This document shows, in pieces, positions 3 through 34,592 of a DNA stretch of 40,969 nt. The DNA comes from a virus, in IMG/VR virus record IMGVR_UViG_3300024520_000178, positions 1-40,969 of that record; one strand, given 5' to 3'. The first letter of the stretch is position 1, and each line of letters starts with the position of its first letter. Below the pieces are notes generated by a model. That model made no database searches. It saw only the letters and a list, made by a program, of their open reading frames with translations, and had not been told where the DNA came from. Made by a program: the position numbers and the translations under genes.

Positions 3-179
3 TGTCGGACTCGTGGCTGGACAGAGGCGCTTGGAACTGATTCACCTATCGGCTGGCATCATTTGACTGTTGGCGGACAGGGCGGTCCTCACACGATGAA
101 GTGCAAAGTCCCGTTCATCCACGACATACTGGCCGAGCTGGAGCAGGAGGGCGCGGGGGCGGAAGTAGGGCTCGTGTGA
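3..179 (+). CDS. Possible 3' end of an upstream gene, or a 27-residue ORF
   Basis: This frame is open from the left edge of the window to TGA at 177-179, so it may be the tail of a gene that begins outside. If it starts at the first ATG (96) it would be only 27 residues, beginning MKCKVPFIHDI. No good ribosome site precedes that ATG. Its stop overlaps the proposed GTG start of the terminase gene (GTGA at 176-179), the stop-start arrangement used throughout this genome, which is the main reason to take it seriously. No family is recognised. Confidence 0.35.
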   Translation, partial: CRTRGWTEALGTDSPIGWHHLTVGGQGGPHTMKCKVPFIHDILAELEQEGAGAEVGLV

Positions 180-1480
180 CCCGGGAGATCCGCACTAAGC
201 TATCCTTCGAACCGCGCACCTGGCAGCGCCGGTTCTTCGTCAACGCGAAGCGCTTCAACGTCCTGGTCGTCCACCGGCGTGGCGGCAAGACGGTTTCTGC
301 GATCATGTGGCTGATCGACGGTGCGTGCCGCTGCGAACTCGCTCTGGGCCGCTTCGGCTACATCGCGCCCGAGCTCAAGCAGGCCCGCGAGATCGCCTGG
401 GACTACCTGAAGTTCTATACCAAGGATATTCCCCACTCCGTGGCAAACGAGACCAACCTCACGGTCACGTTTGGGAACGGGGCAAAGATCAGCCTGTACG
501 GTGCGGACAAACCAGATCGGATCCGCGGGAGCTATTTCGACCGGGTGGTCCTCGACGAGGTCGCCCAGATGAAGACAACGCTCTGGGGCCAGGTCATCCG
601 CCCGATGCTCGCCGACCGGGAGGGCGAGGCGCTGTTTATCGGCACGCCGAAGGGCATCAACCTGTTCTCCGAGCGGTACAACTTCGCTCGAGCCCACCCC
701 GACACCTGGTACTCCGAGCTGCTGACCTACCACGACAGCGGCGCGCTGAGCGAGTCCGAGGTGGCGGCGATGCGCGAGGACATGACCGACAACGAGTTCG
801 CCCAGGAGATGCTGTGCGACTTCTCGGCCTCGACGAGCAACGCCCTGATCAGCATGGCCGAGGTCGAGGAGTCATTCGACAGGGGCCTCGCCGACCACGA
901 CTTCAATTGGTCGCCGCGGGTCATGGGGGTAGATACAGCCTGGATGGGGAACGACCGCTCGGCGATCGCCCGCCGTCAGGGCCAGGCCCTGCTCGCTCTG
1001 CGCTCCTACCGCCAACTCGGTCCCATGGAGCTCGTTACGACGGTGTGTGGCCAGGCCGCAACCTGGCAACCCGACTGCATCTTCGTCGACGCCGGCTTCC
1101 TCCCGGGCATCTACCAGGGCGTGACCAACCTGGGATACAAGGCCTTGCCGGTGATGTTCGGCGACCCGCCAGACGAGCCCCGGTTCGCCAATAAGCGGGC
1201 CGAGATGTGGTTTGGGATCCGCGACTGGGTCCGCGGCGGCGGGGCGATGCCCAGATCGACCGAGCTCGCTCAGGATCTCTGTGCCCCGACGTACAAGGTG
1301 AACGCAAACGGGAAGATCCTCCTCGAGTCGAAGGAGGACATGCGGTCTCGGGGGCTCCCCTCGCCCGACCTGGGCGACGCCCTGGCGGTCACGTTCGCCT
1401 ACCCGGTAGCCGCTCGAGACCCCAGGACGGGCCGGCCACGGGACACCCGCCAGGCAAAGACCGTCTATCCGCCCAGTTGA
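176..1480 (+). CDS. terL: Terminase large subunit (ATPase/nuclease packaging motor)
   Basis: This is the DNA packaging motor that docks on the portal, pumps DNA into the prohead and cuts concatemers. Counting from GTG 176 (434 residues), the Walker A motif HRRGGKT has its Lys at about 38, and the Walker B motif VVLDE has Asp127-Glu128. The C-terminal RNase H-like nuclease has likely acidic ligands Asp253 (GVDTAW), Asp305 (IFVDAG) and Asp401 (LGDALA). A longer reading from GTG 101 adds 25 Arg/Gly-rich residues with no family character. I prefer GTG 176 because it forms a GTGA overlap with the upstream stop. The small terminase lies far away at the right end of the window (38697), so the two packaging genes are not adjacent here. 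Confidence 0.95.
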   Translation: MTREIRTKLSFEPRTWQRRFFVNAKRFNVLVVHRRGGKTVSAIMWLIDGACRCELALGRFGYIAPELKQAREIAWDYLKFYTKDIPHSVANETNLTVTFGNGAKISLYGADKPDRIRGSYFDRVVLDEVAQMKTTLWGQVIRPMLADREGEALFIGTPKGINLFSERYNFARAHPDTWYSELLTYHDSGALSESEVAAMREDMTDNEFAQEMLCDFSASTSNALISMAEVEESFDRGLADHDFNWSPRVMGVDTAWMGNDRSAIARRQGQALLALRSYRQLGPMELVTTVCGQAATWQPDCIFVDAGFLPGIYQGVTNLGYKALPVMFGDPPDEPRFANKRAEMWFGIRDWVRGGGAMPRSTELAQDLCAPTYKVNANGKILLESKEDMRSRGLPSPDLGDALAVTFAYPVAARDPRTGRPRDTRQAKTVYPPS

Positions 1481-1506
1481 CCTGGGTTCGCCGCCGGTCG
1501 TATCCT
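1477..1506 (+). promoter_or_regulatory. Putative sigma70 promoter for the tRNA gene
   Basis: TTGACC (1477-1482) and TATCCT (1501-1506) are separated by 18 bp. The expected transcription start, about seven bases after the -10 box, falls at about 1513, directly before the tRNA 5' end at 1514. The -35 box overlaps the terL stop codon. The match is good but not consensus. Confidence 0.5.
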
Positions 1507-1513
1507 TGGTTGC

Positions 1514-1589
1514 GACGGGGTGGAGCAGTCGGTAGCTCGCCAGGCTCATAACCTGGAGGTCGCGGGTTCGAGTCCCGCCCCCGACACCA
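1514..1589 (+). tRNA. tRNA with CAU anticodon, initiator-like body
   Basis: A full 76-base cloverleaf with encoded CCA can be folded. The acceptor is GACGGGG against CCCCGAC, with an A2-A71 mismatch. The D stem is GAGC/GCTC, the anticodon stem CCAGG/CCTGG with loop CTCATAA (anticodon 1547-1549), and the T arm GCGGG-TTCGAGT-CCCGC. The D arm and anticodon region closely resemble bacterial initiator tRNA-fMet. However, base pair 1:72 is G-C, not the unpaired C-A of initiators, and only two of the three diagnostic G-C pairs remain in the anticodon stem (29:41 is A-U). It could be an altered initiator, an elongator Met tRNA, or a lysidine-type Ile tRNA. It sits between terL and the next gene. Confidence 0.85.
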
Positions 1590-1602
1590 CAGGAGGTGCG
1601 AA

Positions 1603-1884
1603 ATGGGAGGCGGGAGCGTACCGGGGCCCACGCAGATTGTCTCAGGACCCCCGCAGCCGGCGGCGCTCGACCCGCAGATGCTCGAGGCGCACCGGCGCCG
1701 GCGGAGTCGACGCACCGGCCTGCGGGCGCGGACCGTCCTCGGTCCCGGAGCTGCGCGGCCCAGCGGGACGCTGAGCGCCCCCGGGCTGATCGGCGGCAGC
1801 GGCAGCGGCGGCAGCGGCGGCGGGACGATAGGGAACGCCGTGGCGGCGGCCCTGCGGCAGCGACGTGCAAATGGCGTCCGCTAG
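1603..1884 (+). CDS. Small Gly/Arg-rich phage protein next to portal
   Basis: This is a 93-residue protein with a near-perfect ribosome site, AGGAGGT at 1591-1597, five bases before ATG. It starts MGGGS, has an Arg-rich middle (RRRRSRRTGLRARTVLG, about 32-48) and a Gly/Ser linker (GGSGSGGSGGG, about 64-74). Many phages carry a short Pro/Gly-rich protein beside the terminase and portal genes, with an Arg-rich segment followed by a T-(I/V)-L-(T/G)-G-like motif, and this one has that look. Its function is unknown; a virion or portal-associated role is inferred from position only. The 3' end overlaps the portal reading frame. Confidence 0.7.
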   Translation: MGGGSVPGPTQIVSGPPQPAALDPQMLEAHRRRRSRRTGLRARTVLGPGAARPSGTLSAPGLIGGSGSGGSGGGTIGNAVAAALRQRRANGVR

Positions 1885-3706
1885 CACGCTGTCCACCATG
1901 GCCCGGATCTACGCCGACATGGGCAGGCAAGGCGCCGAGCAGGCGATCCGGATCTCCGACATCCGCAAACGCCGGGACCTCGACCCCAACACGGCCCAGC
2001 GCTACCGCCGGCGCAACGAGTACCTCCGGAACCAGCGGAACAGCTCGTGGATCGCTCACTGGAGAGAGCTGAGCGAGGTGCTCCTGCCGCGGCACGCCCG
2101 GTTCGACCCGTCTGATCGCTGGCGGGCTGGCTCCAAGAAGAACCAGAAGATAATCAACAACACGGGGACTCGAGCGCTCCGCATCCTGGCCGCCGGCCTG
2201 ATGGAGTTGACGAACCCTGCCCGGCCCTGGCTCCGACTCCTGACCCACCACCCGCACCTCAACCGGAACCGGCGCGTACGCGCCTGGCTCGAGGAGGTCA
2301 CACGGGTTCATCTCGACACGTACGCGATGTCGAACACCTACCACGCGCTGTCCTGGGTCGCGCTCAACCTGGGCTGCTACGGCACGGCGTGCGCCTTCAT
2401 CGAGGAGCACCCGACCGACACCCTGCGGATCCACCCCATGGCGATCGGGTCCTACTGTCTGGCCACCGACGAGAACCACGTCGTCAATTCGGTGTACCGC
2501 GAAACGACGATGACCGTCGAGCAGCTCGTCCGCCGGTTCGGCCTGGAGAATTGCTCGTCGCACATCCAGACGATGTGGTCTCGCGGACACTATGACGGCT
2601 GGGTCCACGTCCTGCACGTCATCGAGCCCAACGACTGGGTCGTCCACGGGAACATGGACCATACCGGCAAGCCGTTCCGCTCCGTCTGGCTCGAGTACGG
2701 CGGGACGACCGACTACACCACCGGCTCGGTCGACACCAGCGAGTCCGCGTTCGACCGCCTGCTCGGGGTCAAGGGGTTCGACGAGTTCCCCTGTCTCGCG
2801 CCCCGCTGGGAGCTCGGCGAGGTCGACGACGTCTACGGCACTGCGCCGGCAATGGACGCTCTCGGCGACGCGAACAGCCTGCAGAATCTCGAGAAGCGGC
2901 GAGCGCTGGCCCTCGAGAAGATCGTCGATCCCGCGATGAACGCGCCGGCATCGCTCCGCGCCGATGGCGTCGGCCTGGTCCCCGGCTACGCCAACTACAT
3001 CCCCGATGGGAGCCGGCAGAAGCTCGAGCCGGCGCACCTGATCGACTCCCGGGCCCTACTGCTCAAGGACGAGCTCGAGCGGTTCGAGACCCGCATTAAC
3101 GCGGCGATGTTCAGCGACCTATTCCTCGCCCTGACGATGCACACAGGCGCGGTCAAGACGGCGCGGGAGATCCAGGAGCGGCACTCCGAGAAGGTCGTCC
3201 AGCTCGTGACGATCATCGAGCGGATGCACGACGAGCTCCACGACCCACTGGTCGATCGGACGTTCAGCATCCTATTCCGCCAGGGCAAGATCCCCCCGCC
3301 CCCGCCGGAGCTGGAGGGCCTCGACCTGCGACCGGAGTACGTGTCCATGCTGGGCGCCGAGCTCAAGCTGCTGCAGACCGGGTCGATCGAGCGTCTGGTC
3401 GGCATGGTCGGGGGTATGACCGAGGTCTGGCCCGATGCGGGGGACAAGATCAACGTCGACAAGGTCATCGACAACTACAGCGAGCTCCTGATGGTCGAGC
3501 CGACCCTACTGCGAGACGACACCGAGGTCGGGCAGCTCCGGGCCCAGCGCAAGCAGGAGCAGATGATGAGCGCCGAGGGCGCCGGGATGGCCCGCGACGC
3601 CGCTGCTGCAGCGCAGAGCCTGGCCGGGGCCCAGCCCGCACCGGACAACATGCTTGGTCAGCTTGGCTCCGCGCTACGTGGCGAGGGTGAGGAGGAGGTC
3701 GCTTGA
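1871..3706 (+). CDS. Portal / head-tail connector protein (T7 gp8-like)
   Basis: This dodecameric portal sits at the capsid vertex through which DNA passes and on which terminase and tail assemble. The product from ATG 1871 is about 611 residues, the usual size for podovirus connectors. Family features include the N-terminal RRNEYLRNQRNSSWIAHWREL segment followed by LLPRHARF, then KIINNTGTRALRILAAGLMELTNPARPW, typical of the T7/BPP-1-type head-tail connector family. The C-terminus is acidic and Ala/Gln-rich. The start is uncertain: GTG 1865 and ATG 1871 lack a clear ribosome site and lie inside the previous gene, suggesting translational coupling; ATG 1898 is another option. Confidence 0.92.
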   Translation: MASASTLSTMARIYADMGRQGAEQAIRISDIRKRRDLDPNTAQRYRRRNEYLRNQRNSSWIAHWRELSEVLLPRHARFDPSDRWRAGSKKNQKIINNTGTRALRILAAGLMELTNPARPWLRLLTHHPHLNRNRRVRAWLEEVTRVHLDTYAMSNTYHALSWVALNLGCYGTACAFIEEHPTDTLRIHPMAIGSYCLATDENHVVNSVYRETTMTVEQLVRRFGLENCSSHIQTMWSRGHYDGWVHVLHVIEPNDWVVHGNMDHTGKPFRSVWLEYGGTTDYTTGSVDTSESAFDRLLGVKGFDEFPCLAPRWELGEVDDVYGTAPAMDALGDANSLQNLEKRRALALEKIVDPAMNAPASLRADGVGLVPGYANYIPDGSRQKLEPAHLIDSRALLLKDELERFETRINAAMFSDLFLALTMHTGAVKTAREIQERHSEKVVQLVTIIERMHDELHDPLVDRTFSILFRQGKIPPPPPELEGLDLRPEYVSMLGAELKLLQTGSIERLVGMVGGMTEVWPDAGDKINVDKVIDNYSELLMVEPTLLRDDTEVGQLRAQRKQEQMMSAEGAGMARDAAAAAQSLAGAQPAPDNMLGQLGSALRGEGEEEVA

Positions 3707-4080
3707 GCGCTCCGGTCGACCCGCGTATCGCCGACCAGCAGGAGCGTCTGAAGCTCGAGCAAGCCAAGGCCCGGGAGGATCTCAAGGTCCTTCTGGCGTC
3801 TACGGAGGGCCGACGCTCCCTACGTCGCCTGCTCCAGACCGCCGGCGTCAGTTTCTTCCCGTCCAACCCGATTGTGTATACCCGGTCCGGCGAACTGGTC
3901 GACGTCCAATCGACCATGGTGGCGCTCGGAGCGCAGCAGGTCGCCCGCAACATCCAGCAACAGCTCTACGAGATCGACCCCGCCGGCTGGCTGACCCTCG
4001 TGGCTGACTGGGCCCACGACCTCGCGATGGAGCGGGAGCGGTTCAACGCCCGGAAGCGGAAGGAGGCCGAGAATTCGTGA
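3703..4080 (+). CDS. Bbp19-like phage protein
   Basis: This protein has 125 residues. TTG at 3703 is the likely start because GGAGGAGG lies at 3691-3698 and the codon overlaps the portal stop. The central segment STEGRRSLRRLLQTAGV (about 33-49) followed by a short aromatic stretch and an Ala/Gln-rich helix matches the conserved core of the small Bbp19-type proteins found beside the portal gene in BPP-1-like phages. The biochemical function is unknown; head-to-tail joining or a capsid-assembly role is inferred from position. It ends in a Lys/Arg-rich helix. Confidence 0.75.
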   Translation: MSAPVDPRIADQQERLKLEQAKAREDLKVLLASTEGRRSLRRLLQTAGVSFFPSNPIVYTRSGELVDVQSTMVALGAQQVARNIQQQLYEIDPAGWLTLVADWAHDLAMERERFNARKRKEAENS

Positions 4081-4763
4081 ACAGCGCCGTGCTGCCGAGT
4101 AACCTACCCTCTGTCGCCAGAGCCAAGCTGCCCGAGGTCTACGAGTCCGCCAGGACCGCGCTCCAGCACTGTTCCAAGGTCGACCAGTGCAAGGAGTGGG
4201 CGGACCAGGCCGAGGCGTTGGCCAGCTACGCCAAGCAGGCCGGCGACGACTCCATGCGGAAGATGTGCGACCGGATCCAGGCCCGGGCGATCCGGCGGTG
4301 CGGGGAACTGCTTGAAAAGCTACAGCCGAAGGACTCTCCCGGCAGGCCGAAAAAAGGTAACGGTGCCGTTACCATTTCCAGGAAGAAGGCTGCCGAAGAC
4401 GCCGGACTCTCTACTCGTCAAAAGCGCACAGCTCTGCGCGTCTCCAAACTACCCGCCGACGAGTTCGAGGAAGCCGTAGAATCCGCCGACCCGCCGACCG
4501 TAACGGACCTCGCCGAACGGGGCACCAAGAAGAAGCCGAAACCACTGATGGACCTGGAGGGCCGCGATCCCAAGGAGTTCGCACTCGCGACCACGGCGCA
4601 GGGCGAGGTGATGTCATTTGGCGCCATGGCCGCCTCCTCGGATGCCGGCGCCGTTGCCCGGGGCCTTTTCGACAGGGAACGCAGGGCCGTGCTGAAGGAA
4701 GTACCTGCGATCAAGGCCTGGCTAGACCGGCTTGTAAAGGCCATCGAGAAGGAGATCCGGTGA
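4077..4763 (+). CDS. Accessory protein, possible DNA-binding (unknown function)
   Basis: This is a 228-residue protein starting at GTG 4077 (GTGA overlap, AAGGAGG upstream). It resembles a widespread family of phage and mobile-element proteins with an N-terminal four-Cys-poor helix LPEVYESARTALQHC, the block DQCKEWADQAEALASYAKQAGDD, then QARAIRRCGELL. A helix-turn-helix-like segment follows at about 102-122 (KKAAEDAGLSTRQKRTALRV). The C-terminal half is helical and ends in a Lys/Glu helix. DNA binding is an inference from the helix-turn-helix-like pattern. It interrupts the usual portal-scaffold order, so it is probably an accessory insertion, perhaps a regulator acting on the nearby control region. 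Confidence 0.7.
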   Translation: MNSAVLPSNLPSVARAKLPEVYESARTALQHCSKVDQCKEWADQAEALASYAKQAGDDSMRKMCDRIQARAIRRCGELLEKLQPKDSPGRPKKGNGAVTISRKKAAEDAGLSTRQKRTALRVSKLPADEFEEAVESADPPTVTDLAERGTKKKPKPLMDLEGRDPKEFALATTAQGEVMSFGAMAASSDAGAVARGLFDRERRAVLKEVPAIKAWLDRLVKAIEKEIR

Positions 4764-6317: not shown

Positions 6318-7319
6318 ATGGGTGTCATCGGAGCCGGATATCCAACGCTCCTCGACATGGCCAAGCGGACCGACCCCAACGGGTCGATCGCCGGCATCGT
6401 CGAGGCGCTCACGCAGCGCAACCCCATCCTGATGGACGCGATGGCCATGGAGGGCAACTTGCCCACCGGCCACCGTTGCACCATCCGCGCAGGACTGCCG
6501 ACCGTCGGCTGGCGACGGTTCAACCAGGGCGTCGCTCGCTCGAAGTCCACCACGATCCAGATCGACGAGAATATCGGGATGCTCAACGGCCAGTCCTTCG
6601 TCGACTGCGACCTGGCCGAGCTCAACGGCAACGAAGCCGCGTTCCGCGCCAGCGAGGACATCTCGTTCCTGCAGGCGATGAACAATGAGGTGGCCGCGAC
6701 GCTGTTCTACGGCAACAGCGACCTCGACCCCGAGGAGTTCATGGGGCTCACCCCGCGGTACAACAACATCAGCGGGAACGACAACAGCGGCCACGTCTTG
6801 GACTCCGGAGTCGGCACAGGCACCGGCTCCGACCAGGCGTCGATCTGGTTTGTCACCTGGGGCCCCGACACCGCGTACCTCGTCTACCCGAAGGGGTCGA
6901 CCGCGGGCCTCACTCCGACCCCCATGGGCAAGCAGCTCGTCGAGGACGGCGCCGATAGCGACCGCTACTTCCTGGCGTGGGTCACCGACTGGAAGTGGAA
7001 AGTCGGGCTGGTGGTCAAGGACTGGCGCTACCACGTCCGCATCGGCGACATCGACACGGGCGACTGGGCCACGACCGAGATCGAGCTGATCGACCAGATG
7101 ATCGAGGCCTACAACCGGGTCTACGACCTCAACGTCGGCCGGACGGTGATCTACATGAACCGCACGGTGAAAAGCCACCTGGACAAGACCATCTACAACA
7201 AGGACGAGATGCACTTCACCCCCGCCGAGTGGCACGGCCGCCAGGTCGACAGTTTCCGCGGAATCCCGATCCTGACCTGCGACGCCCTGAGTATCGTCGA
7301 GTCGGCGATGACCGCGTAA
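6318..7319 (+). CDS. Major capsid protein (BPP-1-like, HK97 fold expected)
   Basis: This protein has 333 residues, with AGGAGG upstream. The N-terminal MGVIGAGYPTLLDMAKRTDPNG, the block ALTQRNPILMDAMAMEGNLPTGHR, and the C-terminal YMNRTVKSHLDKTI ... FRGIPILTCDAL are typical of the short podovirus capsid family that includes Bordetella BPP-1 Bbp17. No N-terminal delta domain is present, in agreement with a separate scaffold gene. The middle region with several Trp (WKWKVGLVVKDWRY) would be part of the P domain. It is followed by a hairpin and then the cement protein gene. Confidence 0.93.
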   Translation: MGVIGAGYPTLLDMAKRTDPNGSIAGIVEALTQRNPILMDAMAMEGNLPTGHRCTIRAGLPTVGWRRFNQGVARSKSTTIQIDENIGMLNGQSFVDCDLAELNGNEAAFRASEDISFLQAMNNEVAATLFYGNSDLDPEEFMGLTPRYNNISGNDNSGHVLDSGVGTGTGSDQASIWFVTWGPDTAYLVYPKGSTAGLTPTPMGKQLVEDGADSDRYFLAWVTDWKWKVGLVVKDWRYHVRIGDIDTGDWATTEIELIDQMIEAYNRVYDLNVGRTVIYMNRTVKSHLDKTIYNKDEMHFTPAEWHGRQVDSFRGIPILTCDALSIVESAMTA

Positions 7320-15797: not shown

Positions 15798-18700
15798 ATG
15801 GCCGACGAGAAGAAGGATCAGCTCCTCGAGGACGACCCGCTCAGCCGGTCGCCCTTCGGCGTGAGTCGTGTCCAGGGCCAGCCGCAGTTCCCCCCGAGGT
15901 CTCCGGCTCCACCGCCCCTGAATATGCGCGACCCGAAGGATCGGTCTCTGGCCGACTTCCGGGCCCTGGGCGAGCTCCACAAGCAGGGGCAGGTCCAATC
16001 CCTGGCCGCTTCGTTCGACCGCGTTGCGGAGCGTAACACCGCCGACGAGCGCGAGGCTTTCTCGCTCGCGGCCTTCCTGAACCGCGACCCCGCGCGGGTC
16101 CGGGGGAACCTCGACGCCTATCGGGAGATCGCCCGCAAGCAGGGCTTCGACTACGCCCACCTGCTCGAGGTGGCGCCGGCGGTGGCGGGCTTCGCTCACC
16201 AGCACCCCGGGGTCGTTGTCGACGACCTGGCCCGGGCCGGCTGGTGGGAGTGGCTCACGCGGGCCCCTGTCGTCGCCTGGCGCATGGGCGCCGAGGATGT
16301 CGAGTTCGGCCGACTCGGCTTTGCCGACCTGGCCGGGGTAGCGTCGATCGAGGACGAGAAGCGCATGGCCGAGCTCGAGCGGACCATGGGCGAGCGCTAC
16401 CTGGGACAAGACGCCTGGATGACCAAGAGCTACGTCGAGGCGATTCGGCAGCTTCCGATCCTCTGGGGCTCGCTGAAGTGGGGCGTGGCCACCGGAACCG
16501 CGTACGCCGCCGGGGCGGCCTTGATCGGCCAACTCGGCCCCCAGGCAGCCACGCCCGAGGAGGTCGTCACCATGCCGGCGGCGTTCCTCATCGGGACCGC
16601 GTACGGCATGTGGGCCTTCAATAGCTCGCTCGAGGCTGGCCATACGTACAAGGCGATTCAGCAGGAGTTCCGCCGGAAGGGCCTGCAGGCGCCCGATGAT
16701 CTCGAGACCCGGGCGATCGCGGCATTCGCCGGGGCGGTGTCCGGCACGCTGGAGACGGCCTCCCAGCGCGTCCTGGGCGGCGCTGCGGGCGTGGGGCGGG
16801 CGATCCGAGGGATGGCCAGCCGGAAGACTGCCGCACTCGTGGCGCAGCGCGGGACACGGCAGGCGTTGCAGAATTTCGTTCGCAGGTCCGCGACCACGAT
16901 GGGGACCGAGGTCTCGACCGAGATCCTGCAGGAGATCACCCAACTCGCCGGCGTCGCGACGGCCGAGGTACTCAAGACCGGCGGGAGCGACATGACCATG
17001 GAGCAGGTGGTCGACCAGTCGCTCGAGATCGCGGTCACGACGGCCCAGGCGATGACGATCATGGGCCCGCTGGCCTCCTCGAGCTCGCTGATCGTCGACG
17101 TGAGGGACGCCCGGCGGACCACCCGGGAGGGCGCTCGGCTCGAGATGCTGGCCGGCACCGTCCGCGGGATGGAGATGCTCGACCAGGCCCCGGAGGCCTT
17201 CCGCGAGCTCGCGAAACAGATCGGGTCCAGATACGGCCAGATGGAGACCGCGCATATCAAGGTTAAGGATTTCAACCAGGTCGCCGAGGCAGCCGGCATC
17301 GACCCGACCGAGTTGGCCCAGGAGATCCTCGGCAGCACCGACTCATACGCCCAGGCGGTGAGCGAGGGCGCCCAGGGCGACCTCGTCATCCCCATGGCCG
17401 ACTTCTTGACCAAAGTTGTCCCGACTCCGCTGTACGAGCAGCTCAAGCCGCACGTCCGGCTGTCCCAGGCGGCGATGAGCGAGCAGCAGGTCACCCAGAA
17501 GGCGGACGCCGTGCGGGAGGTCCTGCTGGCGTCCCTCCCCGAGGTCGATACCCAGCTCGACCAGGCCGAGCAGACGATCTATGTCGACGTCTACCGCCAG
17601 ATGCTCGACGAGACGGGCGACCCGTCCCTCGCCGACCTGACCGCGACCACTCACGCGCGGGTGATCTCCACTCTGGCCCGACGAGAGGGGATCGACCCGG
17701 TGGCCTACCACCGGACCTGGGGCCTTGCCATCGAGGGTCCGGACAACGCCCGGGTCGCTCGGGCTGTCGATGCCGAGGTCCGCGGCATCCTCGACGAGCG
17801 CCAGGCTGCCCAGGAGCAGCCGGCGACGGCGCCGCTACCAAAGGCCCCTCGCCGGTCGGCGATCCGCGATCTCGGCCAGGTCAAGACCGCCCGGGACTTC
17901 TACTCCTGGGTCAAGAACATGGGCGGCCTGAAGGGCGGGGACCGCTTCTCCGACCTGCCCCAGGGCGACGAGCTGTTCGATCAGATCCCGGCCTTCGCCA
18001 AGAACCAGCAGGCCGGCAAGACCATCTCGGAGCTCGGCGAGGAGCTGATGCAGATGCGCGGCTCGCCGTTCGCCGACCTGGACGCGGCTGCCGATTGGCT
18101 GCTCGACGCGCTGCAGAACCCCGAAGGGGTCGAGTTGCCCCGCGGTCTGGCCGAGGCCGACCTGGACCCCGGATCCGCCGGGATCCTCGAGGAGCAGCTG
18201 GAGCACGACACCGAGCTACGCGCTCGAGTCGACCAGGTCGACGCGCTGTACGACGGCCTCGAGGGCGCGGCGCCGGCGGACGCCGCCCGGGTCCAGCTGG
18301 AGATCGCCAGCCAGTGGCTCGAGGTGGCCCGCGAGTTCGGCCAGGACGTCGTCGACCTGCTCCTGCGGCGGGACTACGGCACGTCCCTGCGGGCGCTCCA
18401 GGCGAACGTCAGACGGTCCGGATTCGACCCCGAGGGCGAGTCCAGCGTCACCCCGTACGACCCGCGGTACGAGCCGGACAAACTCGCCTTATGGATGTCG
18501 CGCAATGGCGGGATCGACCCCAAGGAGCAGGGCGCCTGGCGCGGGCGCTACCCGGGCGTGGTCAGTCCGGGCGGGCTGACCCTCGATCGTTGGGCCGAGG
18601 AGATCCGCAGCCACTGGCCGGAGTACTTCCCCAGCGACGATGCCGCGCTCGAGTGGCTCCGCGAGGAGTGGGCCACCGGCGCCGGCAAGCCTCAGTCGAC

Positions 18701-21700
18701 GACCCTGACCGGCGAGGCCGCGGTGCTCGAGGTGCGGGCCCAGACGCTCTCGGCCGACATCCAGGAGATCATCCGCGAGGCGCGGGAGCAGGGCGTCCGA
18801 CCTGACGCCGCCCAGGTGGCCCGGACGGTGCTCGAGGACTCTGGCTGGTCTGAGGTGTCCTCTGCCAACCTCGGCGAGGGCGACGTTGTCCTCGAGCGGG
18901 AGACCGGGGCGATCTTCCGCGTGGTGGCGGACGGCGATCAACTGCGCCTCGAGGGCCGGGCCGGCGACCTGCCGCTGACCGCCTTCAACTTCTACAGCGC
19001 CATCCCGCTCGGTCGACGAGCTCAGCGCTTCCACCAGAAGAAGACCGAGGCCCAGGTCCGCCGAGGGCATCTGCTGCGCCGGCTGGCTCCGTTCATCCAG
19101 CAGGCCGACGTCTCCAGGTCGAAGAACGCCACGCTCCAGGGGGCGATTGATCTGATCCGAGCGCTCCCATCGGCCATTGAGATGGCGTCTGTCGCCTGGG
19201 CCGGGCGCAAGGCGCGCCGTTGGTATCAGCGATCGGCGCGGATGATCCTTGAGGTGTTCGGTCCGGACGATGCGCCGCGATTCGGCGCACTGCTTGCGGC
19301 GCTGTCGCCCCGGACAGACGTGCAAGACAACCTGTACAAGGCGGTGACTCTCTGGGCCAAGTGGGATGCCGCTGGCAGGCCCCGGGACGAGGTGTCGATC
19401 CGGCGACTTGCCTCGAAGCACAAGCCGACCCTGATGGGGATGCTGCAGAACAACATCGTCATTGCGCTGACCAGCGAGGCTCCGGGGTCGGTCGTCCTGT
19501 CCGGTCCCAAAGTGGCGTCGTTCGCCAAGAACCTGCGCGGCGAGTTGCGGGCCGTGACCAATGACGGCCATATGGCGTACTACTTCGGCATCGACCCGAA
19601 ACTACTGGAGAGTGATCGCAGCGAGGCCAAGGGCGTGCCCCAGGCACTGTTCAGCGCGCACTACCTAGCCCTGACCTGGATCACCCGGAGGGCCGCCGCG
19701 ATACTGCACCAGCGCACGGGCGAGGCGTGGGAGCCGGCCGAGGTCCAGGCCGCCGTCTGGGCCTGGTCGCGCACGCTACGCTTCACGGTGAAGCGGGACG
19801 ACCAGAAAAACCGGCTATCGAAGTTCGAGATGGTCCGCTATGGGATGTTCGGCCCGGGGGACGTGAAACCGGACGACTTCGCAGAGCTGATGATGTCGAC
19901 GGTTCAGCGGGGCGTGGAGCTGTTCGAGCGGGGCAAACTGCCCAAGGCCAAGGAGGTTCTCGGTGGACTCGCAAAAAGAACAAGAAGTGCGCGACGCGCT
20001 GTCGGCGATTTTGGATTCACAGCACTCGAAGGCGGACCAGATGAAGGGTTTTCTGCTGGACACGCTGCAGACCTCCGACGAGCTGCCCGGCGGCTCGACG
20101 AGCGATTCCCCGTCGAGGAGCGACAGCAGCAGGCCACCAAGCGCGCCCGACTCCGAGAGCCCGGAGCCGACTACTCCCCCGCCGACCAGGAGCAGCGAGC
20201 CAGCGACGCCCTTGCCGAGATCAGAGACAGTGCCGCCGAGCAGCAGGGCGAGCTCGCCGCCCGCCCCGCCCGAGAGCTCAAGCCCGGAGATCGCGTCACC
20301 TACCGAGGAACCGAGGTTGCCGGGTTCGCAGGAACCGAAGGGACCGTCAGCAGCGTAGGGCCCGGCAAACTCGGCGTGGGCGTCGACTGGGACAAGCCGC
20401 TCAACAAGAGCGGCGCCAACCACGGGACACACCCGGCCACCGAGCTGGCCGAGCCTGGCCAGCAGGCCGAGCTCGACTTCGGCGACACCCCCGACGCCGC
20501 CGAGCCCGCCGGCCCCGAGCAGCGCGGAGGCGTCCGGGTCCTCGCCCGAGACCTCCCTGCCAGGATCGAGCGCGACCGAGGGGCCGAGCTAGTCGGGTCG
20601 ACCGTCATCACGCCCCGCGACCTCGCGACGCTTGCCTCGATCCTCCGCGACCGTCGTATCGAGACAATACGCCACTTCTGGATCGATAAGAACGGGAAGA
20701 TCGTCTCGACCGAGGCCGGCTCGAGCGGGATGCCCGGCTACTCCTCGATTGCGATCGGGTTGGCCCCGGAGTCCGCAGAGGATTTCATCCCGTACTACCA
20801 CCGGCTCGCCCGGAGGGCCCTACGCCTACTGAAGTCTCGGGGTGTGCGTGAGCTCTACCTCATGCACAACCACCCATCAGCCACCCCGACGTCGAGCATG
20901 GACGATCGCAAGGCGAACCGCCGGGCAACGGTCGAGTTCCTGGCCCATCAGATCAAGATCGTCGCCAACGAGGGCGCCCCGAAGGGCCAGAAGCGGCGGG
21001 TTCAGCGCCTGATGAAGGCGATCGAGGACGACCGCTTCTGGCCCTACAGGCCGCACGAGCACGACCCCGACAACTTCATCATGACCGAGCCGGGGGCCCT
21101 GCAAGATCCTGACGCGCCGCCGGGAGTGCGCGAGCAGCTCGACGACCTGACGAAACTGTACGACGCCGGCGTCCTCGTCGAGCCCCGCGGTCACGTCGTG
21201 ATCGACCACGACCGCTACACCTGGATCGGGCCCACCGGAGAGTTGAAGTCCGACCTGCCGACGCACGACTTCCACAACCTGGACGACAAGCCCGACCCCC
21301 TGCGGCGACCCGAGGACATCGCCATCCCTCACCCGAAGCTGCGGGCGCACCGGGGTGCAGGCCCACAGGACGTCGCGGAGCTCGGCAGTCAGATCGTCAC
21401 CGGGGAGCGGGACGTCGTGCTGATCTACGCCGACGCCGCCGGCCGCGTCGTGGGACTCGAGGAGGTCCCTCGAGGGCTGCTCGATCAGACGATGGAGCTC
21501 GCCAACTGGGTCCGAGGTCGAGTGCCGGAGTACGGCGCGGTGGAAGTCTTCCTCTACACCCGCGACAAGGAGACGGTCGAGTCCATGCGGCGGGCGATGC
21601 AGGCGGGAATCGTCCGCGATGCACTCATCGACACGTCTTCGGTCTGGAGCGCGCAGGAGAAGGGCATCTTCGCGCTGTACGAGCTCGGCAAGGCCAAGGG

Positions 21701-24700
21701 GAAGCCCAAGGCGTCGCGGCGTCTGTGGGAGCGGGCCACGCGCTACGGCACCGACCCCCGCCCGGTCGGCGAGATCCTCCGCGAGCGCCAGCGGGCCTAC
21801 AACGGGGCGGGGGTGCGGTTCCCGCGCTTCTCGACGAAGTTCATCGGGTCCGGGGAGAGCACGCTCAACTACGGCTGGGGGCTGTACTTCACGTCGCTCA
21901 AGGCGATCGGGCAGTGGTATCGCGACGCCGACATGCAGCGGAAGGGCAGGGTCGCCACATTCTTCCGAGGCGCCGAGTTCCAGGCCGGACTGATCGACAG
22001 CACGGGCCACGCGCAGGCTGTCGTCGACCTGGTCGCCGGGATCGACCTCGACGAGATCCGGGCGAAGCTGCCCGACGACATGAAGCAAGCGGAGAATGTG
22101 GTCCTCGTACATGCTGCAAGGCACTTGATGTTCGCCTGGGGTCGCGAGGTGACTATCCGGGGGGTCACGGTCGAGGGCTTGCGGAGACGGGTACTGGCAG
22201 TTGCAGATAACGGGATCATGAACGCCGAGATGGCTCGCGACGGCTTTTCCGGCAAGCCAGAGTTGCACTCGCCATCTCGTCTCGAGGCCGCCGACTTCCG
22301 CGTTTTCGAGGCCAAACTGAACCGCGAGGTCTGGCGGCAGATGGTGCCTGAGCTCACCCTACAGGGCCGCGAGGGCCAGGTGGCCGAGGTCGAGATCCCC
22401 GGGCCGGAGGAGATGCTGCACTGGAACGGTGCGATGGGGGACATCGACTCCGAGGGGGAGTTCATCAAGCCCGACATCGACAACCCCAACCACCACGCAT
22501 ACACGCGACTCGCGGCGGCTGGGTGGGACCCCGAGTATGGGAAGCAACCGCGGAAGCGGAGGCCGACGCCACTGGCCGACAACACCGGCCACACGATCTA
22601 CCGGATCCTCGTACAGCAGGCGGCGTGGTTTATCGAGAGCCCGGATAGGCAGCCGGGGGCTCCCGAGAACATAGCGAGCGATAGCTACGCGAAGTTCCTG
22701 CGGGACCATGACCTTAAAGACCCCGAGGAGGCCGCGTCCCGCTACCTCGACTCCATCGGGATCCGCGGCGTGGCCTACGTCGGCCGGACGAGCGGCGAGC
22801 CGGGCTACGTCGTGTTCAACGACGACCAGGTGTCGCTCCCCGTCGCGTTCTACCAGGACGACCGCGGGCGGATCGACATCGACCGGGTGTCGAAGCAAAT
22901 CACCATCACACTGACCGACGCGGCCGACGCCTCGACGGTCTTCCACGAGATGGCCCACTTCTACCTCGAGGCCATGGCCGATCTGGTCGAACGGCCCGAA
23001 GCGTCGCCCGAGCTCCAGGCCGACTGGGCCGAGGTGCTGCGCTTCCTGAAGGTCAAGACTCGCGAGCAGATCGACACCCCGCAGCACGAGAAGTTCGCCA
23101 GATCCTTCGAGGAGTACCTGCGTCGAGCCCAGGCGCCCAGCGAGGGCCTGCGCTCCGTCTTCGGGCGGATCCGGGCCCTGATGCTCGCCGTCTACGGCCA
23201 GGCCGAGAAGCTCGCCAGCCTTTCCCCGCGGATCAAGGACGTGTTCGACCGGCTGCTCGCCACCGAGCAGGAGATTGCCGCAGCGCGTTCCGCGATGCGT
23301 CTCGAGCCGATCGAGGCACTGACCCGTACGATGTCCTCCGACGAGCTGGAGCGCTACCGCGAGGCCGCGGAGAAGGCGGCTGCGGAGGCCGAGGACGACC
23401 TGCGTGTCGCCGCCCTGGCCGACGCCGAGGAGTTCCGCGAGCATGTGGCGGGCCGGCGCGAGCTGATGGCCGCCGAGATCCGCACCGCCTGGGCGGAATC
23501 CCGCCTGATGACCGCGCTCCACTACCTGCAGCGTGGCCGGATGATCGAGGGCGAGACCCCGCGCGAGCTCCTGAACGACGACGGGAAGTCGCTGAAGCTC
23601 GACAAGCAGGCCCTGATCGACGAGTTCGGCGGCGGGATCCTCAAGCAGCTCGCCCGAGGGAACCAGCACCCCTACACCAACCAGGCTGACCGGGCGACCG
23701 ATCCGGGCACCCTCGCTGAGTTGCTGGGGTACGACTCCGCGGCCGAGCTCATCGCCGAGCTGACCGGCGCGCCCAACTACCAGAAGGCCTTCGACGAGGA
23801 GATCGAGCGCCGGGTCGAGGCCCGCTACGGCGACATCATGCGCGACCCCGGGGCCCTGACCGAGCGGGCGATGGACGCCGTGGTGGCGCCGGCGGCCTTC
23901 GAGCAGCTCCTGATCGAGCTCGACCACGCCCGCCGGCAGCTCGCGCCTGGCGAGGCCGCAAACGCCTCGATGGTCGACCGCGCCTCGCTCAAGGCCTACG
24001 CCGGCCGGGTGATCGCTGGCAAGACAATCATGGAACTCCAGCCTTACGCCTACGCCCAGGCGGCACAGCGGCACGGCACGAAGGCCCAGAGGTCGACCAA
24101 CCCGGAGACCATCCACCGGGAGCGGATGCTCCAGCTCGTCAACCTGGCGCTCTACCGCGAGGCCCGGGACGCCCGCCTCGAGGCCGACCGAGCCCTGCGC
24201 TACGCCCGCCGGATGATGGGCAAGTCGACCCAGCAGATGCTCGGCAAGGCCGACAGTGCTACGGCCGACCCGACCCAGGGCATCGCCGGAGGGTCCTACC
24301 AGGCGACGGCCAACCAGCTCCTCGAGCACTTCGAACTACGGCCGGAGTCGAAGCGATCGACCGAGCGCCGGCAGAGGCTCCGCGACTGGGTGGCCGAGCA
24401 GATCGCCGAGGGCGAGGACGTCGTCGTCACGCCCCGCCTAGTCGAGCTCACCGAGCGGGCGAAGAAGCATTTCCGGGAGCTGCGGGTCGACGAGTTCCGC
24501 GACCTGCGGAACGCGCTGCAGAACATCGAGGGGCTGGCCCGGCTCAAGACGAAACTACTCGACGGCGAGGACACCCGAGACTTCCGCCGTGGGGTCGGCG
24601 AGCTCATCGACTCCGGCGACGCCAACCTGGCCGCGGCGAAGCCGATGTGGGATCCCGAGGTGGACCGGCAGAGGACTATAGGAGAAACGGTCAGCGAGTG

Positions 24701-26801
24701 GGTCGACACCTGGGACTCGAAACTGCTCCGCATGGAGGAGATCATCGACCGGCTGGACGGCCGGGACGTCCGCGGGCCGTGGACCCGGCTCATCTGGCAG
24801 CCGATCGTCGAGGCGCAGAACGCCGAGAACGAGATGACCGCCACTATCGCCCAGGCCCTGGTCCAGCAGTTCGAGAAGCTGGGCAAGAAGCGCAAGCAAG
24901 ATCTCCTGACCGAGGAGGTACCGATCCGCCGGCTGGGCAGGTCGATCCTCAAGCAGACCGCTCTGGTGGTTGCGCTCAACACGGGCAACGCCGGCAACTA
25001 TGACCGGCTGCTCCGCGGGGGCATGGGTCTCGGCGAGCAGTGGGGCCCGGAGGTGATCGAGGAGATTCTCTCGACCCTGACCATCGAGGACTGGACGTTC
25101 GTCCAGGGGCTCTGGGACACGCTCGAGTCGCTCTGGCCGCAGATCGCGGCGCTCGAGAAGCGGGTCACGGGCGTGGCCCCGCCGAAGGTGGAGCGGGTGC
25201 CGTTCCGCCGCTCGTTCGCCAACGAGACGACAGGCGAGAGCACTACCGAGACGTTCGAGGGTGGGTACTACCCGATCGTCTACTCCGAGCGGACGCGCCA
25301 GGCGCAGCAGCAGGCCCGCGAGGGCCAGTCGATGCTGTCGCTGTTCGGTGGGAAGTACGTTCGGGCGATGACGCCCCACGGGCACGTCCAGACCCGCGTC
25401 GAGTCCTTCGGCGGCGAGCTGTCGACGTCCCTCGAGACGGTGACCCAGCACGTCTCGAAGGTGATCCACGATCTGACGCACCGCGAAGCGACGATGCAGA
25501 TATTCCGCATCCTGCACGACCGCGAGTTCATGCAGTGGGCGTGGAACCGGATGGGTAAGACCCGCTGGAAAGCGCTCGAGGACTGGCTCCGCCGGATCAT
25601 CCAGGTCCAGAACACCAACGACCCGGACGTCGAGTCCTTCATCCGCAAGGGCCGGCTCAACGTGGCAGCCGCGGCCATGGGGTTCAAGGCGACGGTGAGT
25701 CTGCAGAACATCGTCAACCTGTCCAACGTGGTGGAGAAGGTCCCGGTCAGGTGGTTCGGGCCGGCGTTGCGCGAAACGATGCGCCACCCGATCGCTACCC
25801 GGGAATTTATCCACGGCAAGTCGGGCGAGATGAAGTTCCGCTTCCAGACCCTCGACCGCGACATCCGAGAGGCTCTGCAGCGGCAGGGGTCGATCCGGGG
25901 CATGACCGGCCGGCAGAAGTTCATCAAAGAAGCGCAGAAGCTGGGATTCGGGGTGATCGCAGCGACAGACATGATCTCGGCCTATCCGGCCTGGATCGCT
26001 GCGTACCGGCACGCCATGGCGGCCGAGGGCGAGCACGGTCTGGGCCTCACCGAGAAGCAGGCGATCGCTCACGCTGACCGGACGGTCCGGACCACCCTGT
26101 CCGCCGGCGGGGAGAAGGACATCGCGAACATCCAGGCCAGCTCGAGCGAGCTCCTGAAGGCCCTGACGATGTTCTATGGCTGGTTCTCGACGGCCTATAT
26201 GAGGTTCCGGGCCCTGGGATTCGACATCCGCACGGCCCGCCACAAGGAGGAGGGGGCTGTCGCCCGGGGTCTCCCGTGGTATCTGGGCCGCATGCTGGCC
26301 TTCTGGATCGTGCCGGCCACCGTCGCCGAGCTCCTGGCCAACCGCGGCCCGGACGCCGAGGACGACGAGGGGTGGGTCGAGTGGTTCATCACCAAAACGC
26401 TCCAGTATCCCATGCTGACCATCCCGGTCCTCCGCGACGCTTCGAGCCTGGTCGAGGGCCATATCCGCGGCGAGCGCCGGTCGGCTCGCTTTGGCGCCCT
26501 CTCGACGGTGCTCGAGGAAACGGTGCGGGCCGGTGCGGTCCTGGCCGAGGAGGCCGTCGACCTGTTCGGGCCCGAGGACTTCGACGAGGACAAGGCCGCC
26601 GTCGCCGCGGCCCGCGCGATGGGCTATACCATGGGCCTGCCGTCGAGCCAGTTCGAGATCACCGGCGGATACCTGTGGGACGTGTTCATCAACGGCCAGG
26701 AGCCTGCAGACGTGCTCGAGTTCATACGTCACCTGCTGTACCGCCGCTCCCCCGAGGAGCGGAAAGAATCCGGGGACGAGCCCGTGGCGAGGCGCAACTG
26801 A
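15798..26801 (+). CDS. Giant polyvalent virion protein (gp16-position) with JAMM, ART-like and zincin motifs
   Basis: This is a 3667-residue protein, over a quarter of the window. It has a Pro-rich N-terminus, a hydrophobic hairpin (~218-275), and two related FYSWVKNMGG/LALWMSRNGG-type modules (~695-775, ~885-965). A conserved phage domain (~1090-1300) centres on LSPRTD (1169-1174). An SH3-like segment (~1490-1535) follows. A RadC-like JAB domain (~1595-1725) has an intact HxHx7Sx2D motif (His1690, His1692, Ser1700, Asp1703). An ART-PolyVal-like domain (~2005-2345) has SGES and YGWGLYF (Tyr2025) and ends YVVFNDD. A zinc metallopeptidase motif is HEMAH (His2383-His2387). The rest is helical, like C-terminal parts of phage polyvalent proteins, with a hydrophobic stretch near 3495. 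It is probably ejected into the host with the DNA, delivering protease and ADP-ribosyltransferase activities. Domain names are from motif recognition. Confidence 0.9.
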   Translation: MADEKKDQLLEDDPLSRSPFGVSRVQGQPQFPPRSPAPPPLNMRDPKDRSLADFRALGELHKQGQVQSLAASFDRVAERNTADEREAFSLAAFLNRDPARVRGNLDAYREIARKQGFDYAHLLEVAPAVAGFAHQHPGVVVDDLARAGWWEWLTRAPVVAWRMGAEDVEFGRLGFADLAGVASIEDEKRMAELERTMGERYLGQDAWMTKSYVEAIRQLPILWGSLKWGVATGTAYAAGAALIGQLGPQAATPEEVVTMPAAFLIGTAYGMWAFNSSLEAGHTYKAIQQEFRRKGLQAPDDLETRAIAAFAGAVSGTLETASQRVLGGAAGVGRAIRGMASRKTAALVAQRGTRQALQNFVRRSATTMGTEVSTEILQEITQLAGVATAEVLKTGGSDMTMEQVVDQSLEIAVTTAQAMTIMGPLASSSSLIVDVRDARRTTREGARLEMLAGTVRGMEMLDQAPEAFRELAKQIGSRYGQMETAHIKVKDFNQVAEAAGIDPTELAQEILGSTDSYAQAVSEGAQGDLVIPMADFLTKVVPTPLYEQLKPHVRLSQAAMSEQQVTQKADAVREVLLASLPEVDTQLDQAEQTIYVDVYRQMLDETGDPSLADLTATTHARVISTLARREGIDPVAYHRTWGLAIEGPDNARVARAVDAEVRGILDERQAAQEQPATAPLPKAPRRSAIRDLGQVKTARDFYSWVKNMGGLKGGDRFSDLPQGDELFDQIPAFAKNQQAGKTISELGEELMQMRGSPFADLDAAADWLLDALQNPEGVELPRGLAEADLDPGSAGILEEQLEHDTELRARVDQVDALYDGLEGAAPADAARVQLEIASQWLEVAREFGQDVVDLLLRRDYGTSLRALQANVRRSGFDPEGESSVTPYDPRYEPDKLALWMSRNGGIDPKEQGAWRGRYPGVVSPGGLTLDRWAEEIRSHWPEYFPSDDAALEWLREEWATGAGKPQSTTLTGEAAVLEVRAQTLSADIQEIIREAREQGVRPDAAQVARTVLEDSGWSEVSSANLGEGDVVLERETGAIFRVVADGDQLRLEGRAGDLPLTAFNFYSAIPLGRRAQRFHQKKTEAQVRRGHLLRRLAPFIQQADVSRSKNATLQGAIDLIRALPSAIEMASVAWAGRKARRWYQRSARMILEVFGPDDAPRFGALLAALSPRTDVQDNLYKAVTLWAKWDAAGRPRDEVSIRRLASKHKPTLMGMLQNNIVIALTSEAPGSVVLSGPKVASFAKNLRGELRAVTNDGHMAYYFGIDPKLLESDRSEAKGVPQALFSAHYLALTWITRRAAAILHQRTGEAWEPAEVQAAVWAWSRTLRFTVKRDDQKNRLSKFEMVRYGMFGPGDVKPDDFAELMMSTVQRGVELFERGKLPKAKEVLGGLAKRTRSARRAVGDFGFTALEGGPDEGFSAGHAADLRRAARRLDERFPVEERQQQATKRARLREPGADYSPADQEQRASDALAEIRDSAAEQQGELAARPARELKPGDRVTYRGTEVAGFAGTEGTVSSVGPGKLGVGVDWDKPLNKSGANHGTHPATELAEPGQQAELDFGDTPDAAEPAGPEQRGGVRVLARDLPARIERDRGAELVGSTVITPRDLATLASILRDRRIETIRHFWIDKNGKIVSTEAGSSGMPGYSSIAIGLAPESAEDFIPYYHRLARRALRLLKSRGVRELYLMHNHPSATPTSSMDDRKANRRATVEFLAHQIKIVANEGAPKGQKRRVQRLMKAIEDDRFWPYRPHEHDPDNFIMTEPGALQDPDAPPGVREQLDDLTKLYDAGVLVEPRGHVVIDHDRYTWIGPTGELKSDLPTHDFHNLDDKPDPLRRPEDIAIPHPKLRAHRGAGPQDVAELGSQIVTGERDVVLIYADAAGRVVGLEEVPRGLLDQTMELANWVRGRVPEYGAVEVFLYTRDKETVESMRRAMQAGIVRDALIDTSSVWSAQEKGIFALYELGKAKGKPKASRRLWERATRYGTDPRPVGEILRERQRAYNGAGVRFPRFSTKFIGSGESTLNYGWGLYFTSLKAIGQWYRDADMQRKGRVATFFRGAEFQAGLIDSTGHAQAVVDLVAGIDLDEIRAKLPDDMKQAENVVLVHAARHLMFAWGREVTIRGVTVEGLRRRVLAVADNGIMNAEMARDGFSGKPELHSPSRLEAADFRVFEAKLNREVWRQMVPELTLQGREGQVAEVEIPGPEEMLHWNGAMGDIDSEGEFIKPDIDNPNHHAYTRLAAAGWDPEYGKQPRKRRPTPLADNTGHTIYRILVQQAAWFIESPDRQPGAPENIASDSYAKFLRDHDLKDPEEAASRYLDSIGIRGVAYVGRTSGEPGYVVFNDDQVSLPVAFYQDDRGRIDIDRVSKQITITLTDAADASTVFHEMAHFYLEAMADLVERPEASPELQADWAEVLRFLKVKTREQIDTPQHEKFARSFEEYLRRAQAPSEGLRSVFGRIRALMLAVYGQAEKLASLSPRIKDVFDRLLATEQEIAAARSAMRLEPIEALTRTMSSDELERYREAAEKAAAEAEDDLRVAALADAEEFREHVAGRRELMAAEIRTAWAESRLMTALHYLQRGRMIEGETPRELLNDDGKSLKLDKQALIDEFGGGILKQLARGNQHPYTNQADRATDPGTLAELLGYDSAAELIAELTGAPNYQKAFDEEIERRVEARYGDIMRDPGALTERAMDAVVAPAAFEQLLIELDHARRQLAPGEAANASMVDRASLKAYAGRVIAGKTIMELQPYAYAQAAQRHGTKAQRSTNPETIHRERMLQLVNLALYREARDARLEADRALRYARRMMGKSTQQMLGKADSATADPTQGIAGGSYQATANQLLEHFELRPESKRSTERRQRLRDWVAEQIAEGEDVVVTPRLVELTERAKKHFRELRVDEFRDLRNALQNIEGLARLKTKLLDGEDTRDFRRGVGELIDSGDANLAAAKPMWDPEVDRQRTIGETVSEWVDTWDSKLLRMEEIIDRLDGRDVRGPWTRLIWQPIVEAQNAENEMTATIAQALVQQFEKLGKKRKQDLLTEEVPIRRLGRSILKQTALVVALNTGNAGNYDRLLRGGMGLGEQWGPEVIEEILSTLTIEDWTFVQGLWDTLESLWPQIAALEKRVTGVAPPKVERVPFRRSFANETTGESTTETFEGGYYPIVYSERTRQAQQQAREGQSMLSLFGGKYVRAMTPHGHVQTRVESFGGELSTSLETVTQHVSKVIHDLTHREATMQIFRILHDREFMQWAWNRMGKTRWKALEDWLRRIIQVQNTNDPDVESFIRKGRLNVAAAAMGFKATVSLQNIVNLSNVVEKVPVRWFGPALRETMRHPIATREFIHGKSGEMKFRFQTLDRDIREALQRQGSIRGMTGRQKFIKEAQKLGFGVIAATDMISAYPAWIAAYRHAMAAEGEHGLGLTEKQAIAHADRTVRTTLSAGGEKDIANIQASSSELLKALTMFYGWFSTAYMRFRALGFDIRTARHKEEGAVARGLPWYLGRMLAFWIVPATVAELLANRGPDAEDDEGWVEWFITKTLQYPMLTIPVLRDASSLVEGHIRGERRSARFGALSTVLEETVRAGAVLAEEAVDLFGPEDFDEDKAAVAAARAMGYTMGLPSSQFEITGGYLWDVFINGQEPADVLEFIRHLLYRRSPEERKESGDEPVARRN
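19963..20358 (+). CDS. Nested out-of-frame ORF inside the giant gene
   Basis: This 131-residue ORF lies in the +1 frame relative to the giant gene. GTG 19963 is preceded by AGGAGG (19951-19956) with ideal six-base spacing. In its first ~45 codons the nested frame ends mostly in G or C (GTG GAC TCG ... GCG CTG TCG GCG), like other genes here. Over the same stretch the giant frame has rare AGA, CGA, AAA and ACA codons. The product starts MDSQKEQEVRDALSAIL and has an amphipathic helical N-terminus; after about residue 43 it becomes a Ser/Pro-rich tail, probably constrained by the other frame. Function unknown; it could alternatively be a fossil gene start. Confidence 0.5.
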   Translation: MDSQKEQEVRDALSAILDSQHSKADQMKGFLLDTLQTSDELPGGSTSDSPSRSDSSRPPSAPDSESPEPTTPPPTRSSEPATPLPRSETVPPSSRASSPPAPPESSSPEIASPTEEPRLPGSQEPKGPSAA

Positions 26802-34563: not shown

Positions 34564-34592
34564 ATCGTAGCGCACCCCGTTGGCGCTGTCAA
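34564..34592 (-). promoter_or_regulatory. Leftward sigma70 promoter
   Basis: On the minus strand TTGACA (complement of 34587-34592) and TACGAT (complement of 34564-34569) are 17 bp apart. The -35 box is perfect consensus. It fires into the three small leftward genes. Confidence 0.75.
34580..34592. promoter_or_regulatory. Operator candidate OL
   Basis: The 13-mer, read on the minus strand, is TTGACAGCGCCAA; it matches TTGACACTGCCAA at 34614-34626 in 11 of 13 positions and is itself an imperfect palindrome (TTG...CAA). It covers the -35 box of the leftward promoter. Confidence 0.6.

Follow-up and report, generated by a model that had tools for sequence, protein, structure and literature searches.

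Bacterial initiator tRNAs are marked by a broken pair at position 1:72 of the acceptor stem, and the single tRNA gene of one tailed phage genome, whose anticodon is CAU, pairs these positions and is broken at 2:71 instead. What kind of tRNA is this, and is its altered end a working arrangement, a sign of decay or an error? We addressed these questions computationally in one virus record of 40,969 bases and about 66% GC, the whole of which is called the window here. We judge the chance slightly better than even that the gene encodes a working, phage-encoded initiator-type tRNA of a phage-associated acceptor class; read from sequence, the class would be defined by G at position 1, a broken 2:71 pair and a retained C3-G70, and in it the opening that marks bacterial initiators appears to have moved or extended from 1:72 to 2:71.

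Table 1. Coordinates of the tRNA gene, its parts and neighbouring or diagnostic phage features in the window
Feature	Coordinates	Strand	Details
Terminase large subunit, upstream of tRNA	101-1480	+	phrog_2, E 1.4e-42
Sigma-70-like promoter TTGACC-N18-TATCCT (candidate)	1477-1506	+	9/12 consensus matches; consensus match only
Initiator-like tRNA(CAU)	1514-1589	+	76 nt, CCA encoded; ARAGORN tRNA-Met(cat)
5' acceptor strand	1514-1520	+	G1 A2 C3 G4 G5 G6 G7 (GACGGGG)
3' acceptor strand, C66-C72	1579-1585	+	CCCCGAC; then A73 at 1586, CCA at 1587-1589
Shine-Dalgarno AGGAGGT	1591-1597	+	starts 2 nt past tRNA CCA; precedes ATG 1603
Small ORF, 93 aa, downstream of tRNA	1603-1884	+	without family match in PHROGs/Pfam
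Portal (head-tail adaptor) gene, candidate start	1865-3706	+	phrog_332, E 6.2e-128
Major head protein	6318-7319		family match
Terminase small subunit	38571-39212		

An initiator body with an altered acceptor end

ARAGORN reports the gene as the sole tRNA of the window, and it scores 65.2 bits (E 4.3e-12) against the Rfam tRNA model as a complete cloverleaf; the interval given in the preliminary description, 1477-1589, included the promoter, and the tRNA itself begins at 1514. Direct reading of the sequence bears out the paired G1-C72 and the A2·A71 mismatch described there, with C3-G70 and the remaining acceptor pairs formed. The D stem is GAGC/GCTC, giving A11-U24; the anticodon stem, CCAGG/CCTGG, contains A29-U41, G30-C40 and G31-C39; and the anticodon and its loop, CTCATAA, are standard. 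All stems but 2:71 are intact, which argues for upkeep.

The body proved to be of the initiator type, as first proposed, with A11-U24, G30-C40 and G31-C39. In the published tables of PMC5143459 (Tables 3 and 4), 4,430 of 4,438 bacterial initiators carry A11-U24, whereas not one of the 2,762 elongator Met genes or the 2,717 Ile2 genes does, and AGG/CCU at 29-31/39-41 (Table 4) occurs in 522 initiators against one elongator Met and one Ile2 gene; these class frequencies identify the body as that of an initiator. Elongator tRNA-Met is recognized by C11-G24 and the lack of a G-C run at 29-31, and tRNA-Ile2 (CAU, lysidine) by C11-G24, where the window tRNA has A11-U24 and AGG/CCU. It has two of the three G-C pairs expected of a bacterial initiator at 29-31/39-41, the other being A29-U41, a known cellular variant, and it keeps C3-G70 and G4-C69 of the expected acceptor run, 2:71 being A·A in place of G2-C71. 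Position 1:72, unpaired or a weak U-A in bacterial initiators, is by sequence G1-C72, a pair found in 0 of 4,438 initiators and 1,287 of 2,762 elongator Met genes in Table 2 of PMC5143459, so that the window tRNA joins an initiator body to an end that none of those cellular initiators has.

The A29-U41 pair is present as described, but the idea that it specially marks this tRNA did not hold, and we dropped it as a phage signature: AGG/CCU and AGG/UCU together make up 556 of 4,438 bacterial initiators (12.5%; PMC5143459 Table 4), and A29-U41 is the native form in the alphaproteobacterial genomes sampled and common among the viral initiators listed. The odder state is U29-A41: 23 of the 100 entries in one viral sample have it but only 1 of 113 cell-contig initiators does, and Table 4 of the same paper does not list it for cellular initiators.

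One review names the open 1:72 as the major element read by the formyltransferase and counts A73, G2-C71, C3-G70 and G4-C69 among the minor elements (PMC9976931), and a second adds A11-U24 (PMC7949028); of these the window tRNA lacks the open 1:72 and G2-C71 and retains the others. In the predicted ensemble, P(1:72) is 0.23, P(2:71) 0.00 and P(3:70) 0.52, so that the acceptor end is modelled as mostly frayed, and the G1-C72 pair, predicted to be mostly open, may still act as an open 1:72. The suggestion that the tRNA favours unusual start codons found no support: the anticodon and loop are standard, and ATG is the majority among the 26 Shine-Dalgarno-supported starts that a simple heuristic finds in the window alone (17 ATG, 7 GTG and 2 TTG).

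The displaced opening in viruses and cells

We typed tRNAs with an anchor-based parse; ARAGORN ends mis-set position 1 in several 77-nt tRNAs (L082, L083 and others). The surveys comprise the matches listed and are not random samples, and counts are of loci, not independent events, unless grouped. A loose viral survey, with an intake of 100 entries from 120 viral loci and 10 of 11 fetched phage-collection loci passing, gave 122 parsed initiator entries (Gordonia phage GodonK present twice). At 2:71 the entries listed show 112 cases of G-C, 6 of U·C, one each of A·C and U-A, and 2 of G·G. The two G·G cases (L182, L193) are parse artefacts with an extra base in the 3' strand, and the U2-A71 of L154 is paired; seven of the 122 are therefore mismatched. 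None of the 122 has G-C at 1:72.

A targeted scan for initiators beginning G1-A/U2-C3 returned at least 61 viral loci, 49 of which parsed as initiator-like with a mismatched 2:71; the other 12 fell outside the initiator rule, six because the anticodon stem or loop differed or the acceptor parse was broken, and six because they gave no parse. At 2:71 these 49 carry U·C in 47, A·C in one and U·U in one, and at 1:72 G·A in 33, G-C in ten and G·U in six. Deduplication, with the window set apart, reduces them to 38 distinct loci in 15 flank-similarity groups, in which short loci may be under-merged, and the ten with G1-C72 to four distinct tRNAs (L395, L402, L409 and L428), each in its own flank group. 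A search with the 3' end added at least five further loci, among them L450, with G1-C72 and C2·A71, and L447 and L449, with C1·C72 and G2·A71; L446 and L448 were left out of the count for their C11-G24 D stem. The four G1-C72 tRNAs of the targeted scan lie in unlinked phage backgrounds, and the displaced arrangement, as read from sequence, seems to recur in unrelated phages. We call the G1-W2-C3 group the phage initiator-like class, a name coined here, and the window tRNA shows each of its features: G1, a mismatched 2:71, C3-G70, a GAGCAG D arm and GG/CC at 30-31/39-40. Among the matches listed in the viral surveys, only the window combines A2·A71 with G1-C72, and among the papers listed from the open PMC literature we found none that describes a displaced acceptor mismatch in the initiator tRNA of a phage. 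Five G1-U2-C3 loci (L391, L414, L437, L442 and L453) have C-G or another altered state at 31:39, which breaks the G-C run further.

Two cultured phages of Rhizobiaceae carry the mismatch. The tRNA of Sinorhizobium phage phiLM21 (L452) has the acceptor strands GTCGGAG/CTCCGCA (G1·A72, U2·C71) and U29-A41, and is followed at a distance of about 0.9 kb by the gene for the small terminase subunit; that of Rhizobium phage RHph_TM3_3_3 (L453) has the same acceptor ends but C31-G39, which places it outside a definition requiring G31-C39. According to PMC12429752, many phiLM21-like prophages have a single tRNA-Met or tRNA-fMet gene, distinct from the tRNA genes into which they integrate; its passages on these tRNAs do not discuss the acceptor.

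Several neighbouring features were recorded alongside. Both cultured phages have a NusG-like antiterminator gene near the tRNA, with an HNH or HTH gene between, and in phiLM21 the tRNA stands just before the terminases. Under a lenient rule, a terminator-like hairpin whose T tract ends no more than 14 nt from the tRNA 5' end precedes 13 of 37 distinct G1-W2-C3 loci (L082, L390, L396, L418, L426 and L439 among them), 13 of 87 G2-type viral initiators and 6 of 109 cell initiators; other members of the class often have the tRNA just before a gene's ribosome site or behind such a hairpin. Existing annotations overlap the initiator-like tRNA with a 'repressor' CDS in L102 (Pan5) and L454 (vB_MseS-P1), leave it out in L097 (CN1A), and place it on the strand opposite to the parsed one in phiLM21.

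In cellular genomes the targeted pattern occurred in 1 of 398 Pseudomonadota, the match being the copy whose genome centred the draw, and in 0 of 149 Bacillota; the pattern scan of cells covers these two phyla, and some of the tRNAs closest to that of the window come from Gordonia phages and a mycobacteriophage, viruses of Actinomycetota. A control pattern in the same frame with G2 matched 32 of 60 Pseudomonadota, so the frame sees about half of such genomes. Among cell-contig initiators listed, 112 of 113 have G2-C71. The exception, L333 from Albibacillus kandeliae, has exactly the sequence of the viral-contig copy L082, whereas the second initiator of its own genome is different, and for both reasons L333 is probably a prophage gene. 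Among alphaproteobacteria, a group that includes Bosea, 28 of 30 loci parsed, of which 27 have G2-C71 and the remaining one is the L333 copy. The displaced-opening class is absent from the cellular samples examined, bar this probable prophage copy.

Genomic setting

Family matches to terminase, portal, head and tail genes identify the window as a tailed phage genome. The proposal that the tRNA has its own promoter stands as a promoter-like match, by consensus only: the candidate site overlaps the terminase stop codon, its -10 element TATCCT ends 8 nt 5' of the tRNA, and the predicted start is tRNA position 1 or adjacent. The whole window holds six promoter-like matches, where shuffled sequence would give about 3.1 in the sum of three scans; by after-the-fact arithmetic, chance would place a match on the correct strand and in a suitably spaced 5-nt interval about 2e-4 times.

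The window capsid protein is 45-47% identical to those of Caulobacter phage Jess A, Burkholderia phage BcepC6B and Escherichia phage phiV10. The 80 terminase-relative loci examined (80 kept of 190 matching viral stretches; at most 47% identical) yielded no tRNA, which leaves no orthologous tRNA to support upkeep in the window phage's lineage, and a tail-protein query returned one distant locus only. The 2:71 mismatch, whose conservation the preliminary description proposed to examine, exists in other phages, four distinct tRNAs also having G1-C72, which strengthens the reading of a displaced opening. The phage collection held no close DNA relative of positions 1-25000, where 13 megablast records match over the tRNA alone, and the exact pattern of the tRNA 5' half occurs in 0 other stretches of the viral contigs and 0 of the genome contigs. 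An origin as an attachment site is not favoured, the tRNA gene being whole and sitting between terminase and portal; PHROGs and/or Pfam searches of 27 ORFs of the window gave no integrase match.

Elsewhere in the window, a 3,667-aa ORF (15798-26801) has DUF7178 as its only Pfam match; the ORF at 4077-4763 strongly matches phrog_33995, of unknown function, and weakly, below the Pfam cut-off, an AbiEi antitoxin; and strong divergent promoter-like sites at 34564-34641, TTGACA-N16-TATACT (+) and TTGACA-N17-TACGAT (-), are perhaps a regulatory switch.

Function, alternatives and relation to known tRNAs

We infer the expression, charging, formylation, use in initiation and selective reason of the window tRNA from its sequence and setting. 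It would be transcribed from the candidate promoter, together with the terminase-portal genes, or both; G1 and the G1-C72 pair would suit RNase P, and the encoded CCA would help maturation; host MetRS would charge it through CAU; formylation might suffice because a lone G1-C72 beside an A·A mismatch would fray; and the product would initiate on phage mRNAs when the host initiator pool is limiting or attacked. In the part of PMC5143459 that cites Meinnel and Blanquet 1995, C1·A72 is stated to lower 5'-end processing, and G1 could be favoured through better 5' processing or through less acetylation by AtaT. Weighing against the initiator reading, both 1:72 and 2:71, elements read by the formyltransferase, are changed in the window tRNA; the toxin AtaT, moreover, lost the greater part of its activity on E. 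coli initiator transcripts altered to G1-C72, so that this pair can matter to enzymes that act at the acceptor end. As a broader and tentative proposal, which we consider rather doubtful, phages may several times have evolved an initiator class with its opening at 2:71, freeing position 1 for G and so combining easy processing, poor reading by host enzymes that attack initiators, and an initiator pool of their own for late genes.

Selection by such attack is the alternative that survives best, possible in our estimate if not probable: the acceptor and anticodon-stem changes would make a replacement proof against VapC- or AtaT-type toxins and nucleases, which is a reason for initiator function and not an alternative to it. 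VapC toxins from several bacteria, Bosea included, are described as cutting tRNAfMet (PMC8522696), and AtaT acetylation of Met-tRNAfMet is given as falling to about 10% when C1·A72 is changed to G1-C72 (PMC7595197). However, AtaT mainly reads the lower acceptor G-C pairs, which the window tRNA retains. Evasion of anticodon nucleases has been proposed for phage tRNAs (PMC10264068), but the mutations cited lie in the anticodon loop, unchanged in the window, and the same paper states that, where the anticodon is the target of VapC, phages as a rule do without a tRNA-fMet gene. The viral enrichment of U29-A41 would also fit evasion, the window itself having A29-U41.

We consider it unlikely that the tRNA is an elongator-competent or dual-use Met tRNA, in which the restored G1-C72 would escape formylation and enter elongation through EF-Tu. 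This pair is usual in elongator Met genes and absent from initiators in the published counts above, and G2-C71 is also lost; yet A11-U24, G30-C40 and G31-C39 are kept, the A·A next to G1-C72 leaves the end mostly open in the predicted fold, and 33 of the 49 typed relatives have an unpaired G·A at 1:72. Less probable again is a decaying copy of a captured host initiator whose acceptor is drifting: the tRNA-free terminase relatives and the unique A2·A71 would suit it, but all other stems pair, the gene retains its CCA and has a promoter-like site before it, and phages of unlinked background repeatedly show a broken 2:71 beside an intact C3-G70.

It is improbable, too, that the main role of the tRNA is to punctuate the late transcript, as a site of processing or regulation that separates terminase from the gene after it. 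The closeness of the Shine-Dalgarno sequence to the CCA, the frequency of hairpins before the tRNA in distinct class members relative to G2-type viral and cell initiators, and the NusG-like genes of phiLM21 and RHph_TM3_3_3 are consistent with such a role; we saw no terminator-like hairpin before the window tRNA, however, and since any tRNA would serve for processing, the retained initiator features would go unexplained. An assembly or sequencing error at 2:71, raised at the outset and conceivable in a tRNA known from one virus record only, is very improbable, as positions 1, 2, 71 and 72 are all unusual and would need several independent errors, independent contigs share similar architectures, and cultured phages carry a 2:71 mismatch.

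For the favoured reading, a working initiator-type tRNA, what is new, as far as sequence comparison goes, is an initiator body with what appears to be a displaced opening at 2:71 and a G1-C72 end absent from the published cellular count (PMC5143459, in its tables). A natural shift of the break by one pair probes whether the formyltransferase, EF-Tu, peptidyl-tRNA hydrolase and RNase P read a given pair or a loose end. It suggests phage redesign of the initiator, is relevant to the question of why a small phage would have just one tRNA, and is made testable by phiLM21 and RHph_TM3_3_3 as cultured carriers of the 2:71 mismatch.

Compared with bacterial tRNAfMet, the window tRNA has the same CAU anticodon, CTCATAA loop, A11-U24, G30-C40, G31-C39, C3-G70, G4-C69, A73 and encoded CCA, and differs in the paired G1-C72, in A2·A71 replacing G2-C71 and in A29-U41, a cellular minority form. 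Gordonia phages GodonK and Phendrix and mycobacteriophage Myrna provide some of the best whole-gene matches among sequenced phages (91%, 87% and 88%, respectively); their tRNAs share the CCAGG/CCTGG stem, C72 and A73 with that of the window but have a paired G2-C71, a position 1 mismatched with C72, and a place in multi-tRNA clusters. Among G1-W2-C3 relatives, 47 of 49 have U2·C71 and one U2·U71 where the window has A2·A71, and L093 begins GAC as the window does, but with A2·C71 and G1·A72. The phiLM21 and RHph_TM3_3_3 tRNAs share G1, a mismatched 2:71, C3-G70 and the initiator D arm with the window, and the four distinct tRNAs L395, L402, L409 and L428 have in common with it G1-C72, a mismatched 2:71, C3-G70 and the initiator D arm.
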